This document shows, piece after piece, positions 3,016 to 9,410 of a DNA stretch of 9,556 nt. The notes under the pieces were generated by a model, which saw nothing but the letters and a program-made list of their open reading frames with translations, was not told the DNA's origin and ran no database searches. How positions within the stretch are numbered: position 1 is the first letter of the stretch; each line of letters opens with the position of its first letter. A program made the translations under genes and the position numbers. The DNA comes from Deltaproteobacteria bacterium (lineage in GTDB: Bacteria; Desulfobacterota; SM23-61), in assembly GCA_029857975.1 (NCBI GenBank), contig JAOUFX010000059.1:1-9556 (forward strand), given 5' to 3'.

Positions 3016-3393
3016 ATGGCCCAAAAAAGCAGGAGGCAAATCATGGCCGTATTGATTTTTCTTGTAGGTTTTTTTCTTTTCTTCGGATCGGATTCTTTTG
3101 CCCAGGTCTACAAGTATGTAAACAAGGAGGGTAAGGTCTGCTTTACCGATAACTTAATGTCCTCGGTTTTAAAAGACGGCACCTCCAATAAAGAACAAAA
3201 ATCAAAAGTGGTAATCCATCAAAGAAAAAGAAACGGATCAGGCGTAAAGGATATCATGCAATTAGGTCATGAGATTCTCGAAGAAGAATTAGCTAAACCT
3301 CCTCGGAAACAAAATCGTCGTCTGATTCAGGAAATGACAGAAATTTTATATGGAGAAGAACCCAGTAAAAATCCGAAAAATGCCAAGAATTAG
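3016..3393 (+). CDS. Secreted DUF4124-domain protein
   Basis: The 125-residue product has a signal peptide: a basic n-region (KSRR, residues 4-7), a hydrophobic core (VLIFLVGFFLFFG) and a probable cleavage after SDSFA, leaving QVYKYVNKEGKVCFTDNL. This last stretch matches the DUF4124 pattern (xYKYVDxxGxxxFTD) common in periplasmic proteins of proteobacteria. The remainder is lysine-rich and charged. Two starts are possible. ATG 3016 gives the basic n-region and is coupled to the previous stop (TAGAATG). ATG 3043 has a strong AGGAGG (3031-3036) but lacks the basic n-region. I prefer 3016. The gene converges with the selenoprotein operon. Confidence 0.7.
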   Translation: MAQKSRRQIMAVLIFLVGFFLFFGSDSFAQVYKYVNKEGKVCFTDNLMSSVLKDGTSNKEQKSKVVIHQRKRNGSGVKDIMQLGHEILEEELAKPPRKQNRRLIQEMTEILYGEEPSKNPKNAKN

Positions 3394-4184
3394 AAGCCTA
3401 AAGATTTATATTTAATAATATGGTGGATTCCTTGCCTCTGGATCAAGTCTTTAACCGGGACCGGGCCCCTTCTATGTTGATAAATTTGGTGGCAACCAGA
3501 AAGGTCCCATCTTTCCAATCTCCTTGAGCGTTCCCACCCTTTCCTTGCGGTACTCCTCGAGGTGAGAAAAAAATCCAGGTCGAGGCGCCGGCGATGTAAT
3601 TCCTCCGAAAATATCTTCACCAAATCGTTCAGCGAAATTATTCCGTCTTCCTTACGGGGATCGAACTGGGCCCACTTACGAATGTGCTCTTCCGACCGGA
3701 AGAAATTCACCGTGCTTCAGGTATAAGGGAGGTTTTCGTACCATTTCCACATGGGAACAGCCATATATCCCATCACCCCTTCGGGCTCAACCCGGAGGAG
3801 GACGCCATCCTTTATATCCACCCGTATGGGCAACCCACAATCCAGGCAGGGTGCGTCGATCCGAACCGTTTTCCCCGGGAAAAGCCAGCAGACTGCCAGC
3901 GACTCGAAAGCTCACTGACCAAACCACTTCTGTTGGCCATCGATCGTCAGCCGGTATTGAGTTGGAAGGTTGTTGAATGGGGCAAAGGAGACGATATAAT
4001 CATTCCCCGGAAATAGCCAAGCGGGGATCCGCAGACCAAAGAGCTCATGGAGAGTTTTTCGCCCCTCCTCGGGTGAAATCCTTAACTGCGCAGCAATTTC
4101 AGTATAGTGCGGCGCCTGCCCGGTTTCTATCATACGCCTCAAAATGAAATGAAAGGTGTTATCAAGAATAGTGGGTTTATTCAT
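3390..4184 (-). CDS. merB: MerB-family (organomercurial lyase-like) protein with two in-frame UGA codons, predicted double selenoprotein
   Basis: The start ATG 4184 has AAGGAGG (4191-4197) 6 nt before it. Read in one frame the gene passes UGA at 3914-3912 (residue 91) and 3719-3717 (residue 156) and ends at TAA 3392-3390 (264 residues). Residues 1-90 form the winged-helix N-terminus of MerB (HTH region TEIAAQLRISPEEGRKTL, then PFNNLPTQYRLTIDGQQKWF). The UGAs align with the catalytic cysteines of R831b MerB: WFGQ-U91-AFE against C96-ALD, and YT-U156-STVNFF against C159-CHVHFF. C113 matches C117, and catalytic D99 is E94. Each UGA has a SECIS-like hairpin. MerB breaks carbon-mercury bonds by protonolysis and holds Hg(II) between the two cysteines; here both would be selenolates. 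A shortened T-run near residue 205 (3567-3573) seems to shift the tail out of frame; with one more T the protein would end at 3472 (237 residues). The substrate is inferred only from the family. A decayed gene is the alternative. Confidence 0.85.
3567..3573 (-). other. Probable 1-nt frameshift in a T7 homopolymer of the MerB-like gene
   Basis: On the minus strand the coding sequence reads GAT followed by seven T. The annotated frame continues into a basic, low-quality tail (LTSRSTARKGWERSRRLE). With one extra T the downstream frame gives SHLEEYRKERVGTLKEIGK, then GPFWLP, and stops at TAG 3474-3472. That version looks like a genuine helical tail and removes the overlap with the convergent gene ending at 3393. 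It may be a sequencing error, a true mutation, or slippage. Confidence 0.6.
3687..3704 (-). promoter_or_regulatory. SECIS-like hairpin after the second UGA of the MerB-like gene
   Basis: Starting 12 nt after UGA 3719-3717, the minus strand reads TTCTTCC-GGTC-GGAAGAG. This is a 7-bp stem (one terminal G-U) capped by GGUC, the loop also found in the E. coli fdhF SECIS as I remember it. Bacterial SelB binds such a hairpin directly downstream of the UGA to insert selenocysteine. Confidence 0.75.
3884..3900 (-). promoter_or_regulatory. SECIS-like hairpin after the first UGA of the MerB-like gene
   Basis: Starting 11 nt after UGA 3914-3912, the minus strand reads GCTGGCA-GTC-TGCTGGC. This is a 7-bp stem with two G-U pairs and a GUC triloop. 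The upper part GCAGTCTGC begins 15 nt after the UGA, and the E. coli fdhF element has GCAGGTCTGC at the same distance, so they differ by one G. Confidence 0.75.
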
Positions 4185-4245
4185 GCAAGGCCTCCTTTCC
4201 CAATCAACTTTCCTATCCATCCCCTCCGGCAAATACCCGGCAATG

Positions 4246-4342: not shown

Positions 4343-5242
4343 TCAAGACTTGCCATTGCGGTAGCGGTCACCTTTCTTCGCTTCGGCCTGCTGGCGGCGG
4401 CGCTCTTCTCCCGCCCGGGCGAGCGCTTCGCGGTTACTGTCATCGACCCGCATGAAGGCGTCGCGCCACTCGTCGTTGCTCCAGCGAAACGGCGTCTGAA
4501 CCGTCGTGCGGGGCATCCAGGCCCTTTCAAGCAGATCAAGGGCAGTTCCTACGATCGAGCGCTGCATCTTTGTGTCCCAGGGCTTCCCGCAGGGGTTTCC
4601 CAGCGGGAAGTCGGTGAACACGAAGCGGGCGACGCCGCATTCCTCTACGATGTCGCGGGCCGAGCCCAATACCACCGTAGGCACGCCGTTTTGTTCGAGG
4701 TGTCGGGCGACCAGACTCACGGTCTGGTGGCAGACCGGTCAGAGTGCCGAGAGGAACATGGCGTCGACACCATCCTCACGGCACCACTCAAGGATCTGCG
4801 GGGCGTCCCGCAACGATGTCCTGCCCTGGCTGTAGTCGGTGGGGACCCCATAGAAGCGGGACGACACCGACTCGATTCGGCTGCCAGCAGCGTACTCGGC
4901 TAGACGGTTCAGCGGTAGGAAACTATCGACGTCGTCAGTGTGGGTTGCGCCTTTGTCCCAGAACAGGTCGGCAGTGAACATGCGCCTCGGGGCCGGATTT
5001 GCCGCCACCGCGTATAATTCCCTGATTTTCCGCCGGCCCTGTCCTTCGGCTTCGGCATCCATTTTGCCTGCGGTCGTCACCAACCCTACCCGGCACTCGG
5101 AGAGCGGCTTCTTAAGAGGGGTTAAGGGGGCGTCGTCGTGGTGGGCCCAGGTATACGGCTGGGAGTAGCCCTGCGCGGCATAGTACTCCCGGCTGCGATC
5201 GATATAGCTCACGAAAGACCGGTATGGCCGGCGCTGATTCAT
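4343..5242 (-). CDS. GrdB/PrdB-like selenoprotein (glycine/sarcosine/betaine/D-proline reductase family)
   Basis: The start ATG 5242 has AAGAGGTG just upstream (5254-5247). One frame runs through UGA 4741-4739 (residue 168) to a UGA stop at 4345-4343, giving 299 residues. The N-terminal part has RVGLVTTAG, HTDDVDSFLPLNRL, RFYGVPTDYSQ and DAPQILEWCREDGVDAMFLS; after the UGA come PVCHQTVSLVARHLEQNG, VPTVVLGSARDIVEECG and FPLGNPCGKPWD. These match the family of short GrdB/PrdB-related proteins in proteobacteria, where the UGA position is often Cys in a CPVCHQT motif. A U-P-V-C pair is expected to be redox-active. GrdB proper cleaves amino-acid derivatives reductively with a selenolate; this short relative lacks a known reaction. 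The gene is visibly more GC-rich than the flanking small genes, hinting at a different origin. It lies 158 bases upstream of the MerB-like gene, probably in one transcript. Confidence 0.88.
4710..4728 (-). promoter_or_regulatory. SECIS-like hairpin of the GrdB-like gene
   Basis: Starting 10 nt after UGA 4741-4739, the minus strand reads ACCAGAC-CGTGA-GTCTGGT, a perfect 7-bp stem with a five-base loop containing GU. Distance and size agree with the two hairpins in the neighbouring MerB-like gene. Confidence 0.75.
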
Positions 5243-9031: not shown

Positions 9032-9361
9032 TTGGATTTTTTACAAATCTTCGTGTTAACCCCCCATAAAAGGTGGAAAAATATTTCCTTTTTTCCCAAA
9101 TTATATTCCATCGTGGGAATTATTTTTTTTAAAATCTTCTCCACTTTGGTACCCAAGGGTTATAAGATCAGGTCTCGCCTCTCGCAAACATCGCAGCATA
9201 CCGTAAATAGATTAGGGGTGAATTTAAGCCTTGAAGATCCTTCAGTTTTTATCTACCATCCAATCAGCGTTATTCCACCCATCCTTAATGAGCCTAACAA
9301 GCTAACCTCTAAACTTCTGGAGGAGGCAATGAGAAGGTATTTCCAGAAGATGCCCCATTGA
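9032..9361 (+). CDS. Doubtful 109-codon ORF of unknown function
   Basis: The frame from TTG 9032 has no ribosome binding site. Its N-terminal half is hydrophobic and of odd composition (SIVGIIFFKIFSTLV), while the last 60 residues look more protein-like (LSLEDPSVFIYHPISVIPPI, KLTSKLLEEAMRRYFQKMPH). A strong plus-strand terminator begins at the stop codon, which supports a real or formerly real gene end here. The start and the 5' part may be decayed. Confidence 0.3.
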   Translation: MDFLQIFVLTPHKRWKNISFFPKLYSIVGIIFFKIFSTLVPKGYKIRSRLSQTSQHTVNRLGVNLSLEDPSVFIYHPISVIPPILNEPNKLTSKLLEEAMRRYFQKMPH

Positions 9362-9410
9362 AGGCTCCAGGAGGATGCTTTTGTCTCTTTGGAGCCTTTA
9401 TTAATTTTTG
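9361..9410 (+). terminator. Rho-independent terminator
   Basis: AAGGCTCCA (9361-9369) pairs perfectly with TGGAGCCTT (9390-9398), a 9-bp stem, followed by TATTAATTTTT. The T-rich side is on the plus strand, so it ends plus-strand transcription, directly after the stop of the ORF ending at 9361. Confidence 0.6.

Follow-up and report, generated by a model that had tools for sequence, protein, structure and literature searches.

A MerB-like protein family with predicted selenocysteine at both catalytic cysteine positions and a possible role in methylmercury cleavage

How do bacteria that make methylmercury protect themselves from it or limit net methylation, and could a gene with two in-frame UGA codons be part of how they do so? 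The gene in question lies on the minus strand of a 9,556-nucleotide stretch of a Deltaproteobacteria genome (GCA_029857975.1, contig JAOUFX010000059.1; Desulfobacterota, SM23-61), hereafter the window, and resembles the organomercurial lyase MerB with a UGA at each of the two catalytic cysteine positions. Methylmercury is produced mainly by anaerobes with hgcAB (PMC8261052, available excerpt). The reading favored here, held with slightly more belief than doubt, is that of a MerB-fold family in which both catalytic cysteines are predicted to be selenocysteine (Sec) and whose probable role is to bind methylmercury and cleave it in cells that would themselves produce it. The data on which it rests are the codons and their conservation, RNA hairpins, a predicted fold, the Sec machinery present in most carriers and the statistics of hgcA co-occurrence.

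Translation from position 4184 to 3390 of the window gives 264 residues; TGA occurs in this frame exactly twice, at residues 91 (3912-3914) and 156 (3717-3719), 65 residues apart, as a first-pass annotation made from the sequence alone had described. A likely ribosome-binding site, AAAGGAGG (4191-4198), stands six bases upstream of the ATG and makes this start codon plausible. Residues 72-190 match PF03243 (MerB; E 7.7e-22, score 78 against a cut-off of 27 bits), and in phmmer alignments with solved structures residues 91 and 156 pair with Cys96 and Cys159 of R831 MerB, confirming the proposed position of the UGA codons on both catalytic cysteines; in the C160S mutant structure 3f2g, Ser160 likewise pairs with Ser157 of the window protein. 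Of the two Pfam domains named for this check only PF03243 was found, PF12324 not being among the matches, though a winged helix is predicted for residues 1-67. The AlphaFold2 (AF2) model of the family part of the protein has a predicted local distance difference test (pLDDT) score of 95.1 and all eight best solved-structure matches of the predicted fold are MerB. As modeled, the window protein shares with MerB both the fold and the PF03243 domain. Cys96, Asp99 and Cys159 of MerB hold mercury and act on it (PMC4525700, available excerpt). The first-pass annotation had named Asp99 of MerB alongside the two cysteines, but its equivalent in the window protein is Glu94 (3903-3905), which is Glu in all of the 80 relatives aligned at the DNA level (the best 80 of 142). 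Cys113 (3846-3848; Cys in 80/80) occupies the MerB Cys117 position and is the first Cys of a CxxC motif completed by Cys116 (3837-3839; Cys in 79/80, Ser in L079).

The relatives carry TGA at both catalytic positions in 76 cases and TGC/TGA in the other four, never TAA or TAG, and have no further in-frame stop before codon 219. By title, their records are mostly deltaproteobacterial metagenome-assembled genomes, with others from the Nitrospirae, Nitrospinae, Tectomicrobia, Chloroflexi, Spirochaetes, Poribacteria and Alphaproteobacteria. An even set of 395 genomes from the phylum of G001, the nearest kin of the window (presumed Desulfobacterota), includes 22 carriers with 26 full copies, each with two TGA codons, as well as split copies in G429 and G442 (one TGA per piece) and a fragment in G075. 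A protein database holds 571 homologues, the best 120 of which read, at the first and second positions, W/W (50), Cys/end (65), Cys/Cys (three), Ser/end (one) and W/Leu (one); the W/W entries are read as TGA printed as Trp by the gene caller and the ends at the second position as a stop placed there. The expectation that homologues have Cys or UGA at both positions is borne out at 80 of 80 loci, and Cys/Cys relatives exist, with P0058 (Ser) and P0069 the exceptions in the protein database. P0058 belongs to a Sec/Sec clade, with Ser in place of the first catalytic residue and its end at the second. When TGA is read as Cys, the only residues invariant over 53 sequences are G22, G83, C91 and C156.

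Bacterial selenocysteine insertion sequence (SECIS) elements have a G within the first two loop bases. A predicted SECIS hairpin follows each UGA in the window, GCUGGC-AGUCU-GCUGGC at 3884-3900 (alifold of 77 sequences) and UUCUUCC-GGUC-GGAAGAG at 3687-3704 (alifold of 79 sequences), with family-level forms GCUGGC-GGUCU-GCUGGC after the first UGA and YUCUUCC-GGUC-GGAAGAR after the second. A scan of 81 sequences (residues ~11-200) places the most synonymously frozen five-codon spans at +4 to +8 after the first UGA and +5 to +9 after the second, with normalized entropies of 0.166 and 0.066 against medians of 0.85 and 0.86; these spans encode the two hairpins. Across 54 of the 81 sequences, 98.9% of cells in helix 2 are paired and its covariation score was matched by 0 of 500 shuffles. 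The outer pair of this helix exchanges C-G and U-A, joining a Leu/Phe codon to the synonymous base of a Glu codon (42 and 28 of the 81 sequences, respectively, with 5 U-G and 6 unpaired, counts uncorrected for kinship). Folded in isolation, the second hairpin of the window is slightly better than shuffles (z -1.13), and an Rfam search of the window returned nothing at gathering score.

Of the Sec machinery that the first-pass annotation had named as a check, SelB is over cut-off in 68 of 79 carrier genomes (45/50 and 23/29) and in the kin genomes G001 and G075, and tRNA-Sec is present in 39 of 49 genomes, G001 among them. The family presents the features of bacterial selenoproteins, namely in-frame UGA with Cys homologues, a downstream SECIS hairpin, and SelB and tRNA-Sec in the carrier genomes, and UGA91 and UGA156 are predicted to be read as Sec. 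The earlier suggestion of a MerB-fold enzyme with a putative paired-selenolate active site is supported by the PF03243 match, the fold, the Cys/UGA homologues and this machinery.

Beyond the family itself, Cys and predicted Sec exchange at the same two positions across MerB-like proteins. Distant MerB-like proteins are either Cys/Cys (L106-L109, L113-L120) or Cys/TGA (L111, L112). Proteins of ~300 residues (L106-L110, L112-L114 and L118-L120; 281-301 residues in L106-L109, L113, L114 and L120) are like the family in retaining both Cys positions and Glu94, and unlike it in having an insert ahead of the MerB domain and Thr at position 116; all are Cys/Cys except L110/L112, a single gene of G411 with UGA at the second position. 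In a FastTree phylogeny of 116 rows a minimum of 14 changes is needed to account for the Cys/UGA states. Within the family, the three Cys/Cys rows are placed among UGA rows, P0034 via a long-branch join. The topology includes long branches that meet, and its rows represent 22 of the 66 proteins ending at the second position and 0 of the 51 with W at the first, with L081-L099 and L115-L119 excluded. L112 (TGA) and L107 (TGC) at the second catalytic position are close sisters, with branches of 0.022 and 0.028. L111 (G091:C171) is a 205-residue MerB-like protein that keeps Cys96, Asp99 and a CxxC but has UGA, its single predicted Sec, at the Cys159 position; it scores 94.5 bits to MerB (cut-off 193) and stands nearer to the canonical enzyme. 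A single contig, L034, has two double-UGA MerB-like copies (starts 3086 and 12419), of which the second runs off the end of the contig and is the L034 row in the hairpin, codon and tree analyses.

The gene had been described as a single MerB homologue over 4184-3390, an extent that has to be shortened. Only residues 1-206 (3567-4184) are homologous to the family by PF03243, the 80 aligned relatives and the AF2 model, while the last ~58 residues (3390-3566) lie outside the family frame and differ from the C-termini of the relatives. The open reading frame (ORF) departs from the family frame beyond residue ~206 because, in a blastn alignment, a T run in the window has one base fewer than in the relative L001; the family C-terminus continues in another frame and, read by eye, ends near 3472. 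This slip may be a sequencing or assembly error, or it may be a real lesion, and together with the loss or shortening of the gene in sister genomes it suggests that the window copy may be decaying. The ratio of nonsynonymous to synonymous substitution rates (dN/dS) between the window copy and L001 is 0.116, and purifying selection has shaped this copy. The conclusions about the family are independent of it.

The first-pass annotation had remarked that the lineage includes mercury methylators, which is consistent with the presence of HgcA in both G001 and G075 and with its enrichment among carriers. With HgcA called by NF040863 at E <= 1e-60, it occurs in 18 of the 22 carriers and 98 of the 373 other genomes (Fisher p 2.3e-7), and over the curated cut-off in 16 carriers and 97 others (Fisher p 1.3e-5). 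In this table the fragment in G075 and the split copies in G429 and G442 are scored as non-carriers; scoring them as carriers gives 20/25. The signal is also found within families, where permutation over 12 families (95 genomes) gives 18 observed against 12.1 expected (p 0.00065); the family table omits genomes that are neither carriers nor HgcA-positive, so the omission works against the link. Dropping families f11 and f49, and hence one carrier, leaves 78 genomes of 10 families in which HgcA occurs in 18/21 carriers and 24/57 others (p 0.00046), compared to 5/21 and 12/57 (p 0.59) for the control nifH, counted over its cut-off. An order-level repeat comprised 17 genomes and included a single family, f8, in which the link is absent. 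Selenium use was rejected as a confounder because SelB is present in 353 of the 395 genomes (21 of the 22 carriers) and so cannot explain the link. Genome size was likewise rejected as the cause; carriers are larger (mean 4.57 versus 3.53 Mb), yet size adds nothing beyond the gene (p 0.53), and the hgcA association with size in the model has p 0.0006. MerA was considered as a partner and set aside, being present in 2 of the 22 carriers. The enrichment of hgcA favors methylmercury as the substrate, which is proposed with moderate confidence.

From these observations we infer Sec insertion, a chemistry, a substrate and a hand-over of mercury. By analogy with Cys96, Asp99 and Cys159 of MerB (PMC4525700, available excerpt), Sec91 and Sec156, as selenolates, would take up the R-Hg+ ion and Glu94, in the place of Asp99, would give a proton to the leaving carbon, which for methylmercury would depart as methane. 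The Hg(II) would remain in a Se-Hg-Se site from which release would be slow, and could be passed on via the added Cys113-x-x-Cys116, cellular thiols or sulfide, or alternatively retained as an inert sink. More tentatively, with doubt somewhat outweighing belief, a lineage of selenium-based organomercurial lyases is put forward that would act without a mer operon, two selenolates doing the work of the two thiolates of MerB, and would give cells that methylate mercury with HgcA a demethylase of their own or a safety valve. A predicted Sec MerB in methylator genomes is a concrete, testable candidate for intracellular demethylation and would bring the chemistry of selenium and mercury into the active site of an enzyme, and two Sec in place of both catalytic thiolates would offer a natural comparison of selenium and sulfur in one active site. 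Surveys demanding Cys96/Asp99/Cys159, or gene callers halting at UGA, would miss or truncate the family.

A number of observations weigh against the favored reading. A survey of MerB homologues checked for Cys96, Asp99, Cys117 and Cys159 (PMC8261052, available excerpt), positions that here read UGA, Glu, Cys and UGA, and Glu in place of Asp99 fails this signature. The further pair types of helix 2 were matched by 30 of 500 shuffles, and the first hairpin of the window, folded in isolation, is no better than shuffles (z 0.56). SelB is not over cut-off in 11 of the 79 locus genomes and in one of the 22 carriers (G065), the assemblies being drafts. The gene appears dispensable because G001, collinear with the window at 94-98% identity and 96-98% identical in the flanks of the gene, lacks window positions 3385-4186, and G075 lacks 3245-3942 and retains residues 1-82 only. 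HgcA is absent from four of the 22 carriers, two further carriers (G113, G133) have only a fragment below cut-off, and family f8 alone gives no HgcA signal (3/5 versus 3/8). The classical partner MerA is mostly absent, as it is over cut-off in only two carriers (G103, G139), compared to 16 of the 373 other genomes. Finally, clustering of 953 neighbor ORFs from the 80 loci and the window found no gene common to more than 12 loci, and there were no mer, mercury or metal-handling genes among the 25 commonest of 182 neighbor Pfam families (search of 106 of the 149 nearest neighbor proteins).

Of the alternatives, the one that survives best, while still unlikely, is a lyase of MerB fold that acts not on mercury but on some other organometal or an alkylated soft element (As, Sn, Te, Se or methyl-corrinoid). 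The lack of mer genes among common neighbors and the scarcity of MerA fit such an enzyme, as do the PrdB/GrdB-like gene upstream and the radical-SAM and Met_synt_B12-like genes elsewhere in the window, and the related protein SaoL is described as an organometallic lyase for which no substrate is named (PMC13188914, available excerpt); the enrichment of HgcA within families and the retention of the MerB fold and both mercury-ligand positions argue for mercury. A metal-sensing transcription regulator, in which a LexA-like winged helix would be joined to a MerB-like selenolate sensor domain, is improbable. Equally improbable is a redox protein that has no organometal substrate and in which Sec91 and Sec156 would be joined in a diselenide resolved by the CxxC. 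Some neighbors are indeed redox proteins (CCG-domain, 6/106; C_GCAxxG, 3/106; and, read from the sequences, a flavin adenine dinucleotide (FAD) oxidase in Syntrophaceae), and the CxxC is kept in all but one relative, but the structural matches to MerB, the invariant acid residue Glu94 and the HgcA link speak against a purely redox role. That the UGA codons are not Sec, but reassigned codons or ordinary stops in a broken gene, as the W/W database entries, the frame slip and the sister genomes might suggest, is very improbable. Of 80 family genes, 22 themselves end in TGA, for which reason a reassigned code was rejected; 76 of 80 relatives share both TGA codons with no TAA or TAG; and the hairpins, codon freeze and dN/dS likewise speak against this reading. 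The window copy alone may nevertheless be in recent decay.

The genes around the locus give no operon logic for its function, which was rejected as a guide since no operon is shared between the window and the 80 loci. The PrdB/GrdB-like gene (4346-5242), directly upstream and likewise on the minus strand, matches TIGR04483 (E 2.4e-25) and TIGR01918 (E 3.6e-9), both below cut-off, with no Pfam match; its in-frame UGA at 4741-4739 (SALUPVCHQT) makes it a predicted second selenoprotein in the window. Dispersed repeats at 1535-1705 and 9303-9409 have many copies in G001 and G075, the second also in G255. Elsewhere, flavoproteins that match the MerA model below cut-off, L123 (G001:C109:14250-15620), L124 (G178, of the genus of G001) and L125 (G309), appear lipoamide-dehydrogenase-like on reading of their sequences and have an in-frame UGA in the C-terminal tail (HLPUC/HMPUC), near the end where MerA of G103 has a Cys-Cys pair; a flavoprotein of this type is a possible Sec partner reductase. 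In G001 a tRNA-Sec adjoins a second SelB (L128, G001:C222:3118-5189; 297.6 bits), with a stronger SelB on C107, and tRNA-Sec also stands beside SelB in G003 (C152), which has two SelB, and in G037 (C722).

The first-pass annotation knew of no description of such a protein, which holds for the two-Sec form and not for MerB-like selenoproteins in general. No description of a two-Sec MerB was found in the literature searched, including the available portions of selenoprotein reviews, and MerB is not mentioned in the available text of PMC5029168 or PMC12013277. A one-Sec MerB-like selenoprotein, SaoL, with the motif CU, is already reported as part of SAO, an operon with six selenoprotein genes (PMC13188914, available excerpt). 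Around the present family there is no conserved operon among the 25 commonest neighbor Pfam families, the neighbors not having been searched with the Sao models. The window protein, L002 and L069 score below every NCBIfam cut-off that they match (release 20.0), including, for the window protein, those of MerB (NF009710, 42.9 of 193 bits; NF033555, 37.6 of 200 bits) and, for all three, that of SaoL (NF040728, cut-off 140 bits; 36.7, 42.5 and 40.6 bits, respectively). Compared to MerB (PF03243; R831 MerB and MerB2), to which it has ~20% identity, the family has UGA for both catalytic Cys, Glu for Asp99 and the extra Cys116, and its common neighbors include no mer genes. Compared to SaoL, likewise a MerB-like selenoprotein, it has two predicted Sec where SaoL has one and is set apart by the available description of SaoL and by model score. 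The predicted two-Sec family is a new selenium variant of the known MerB family.
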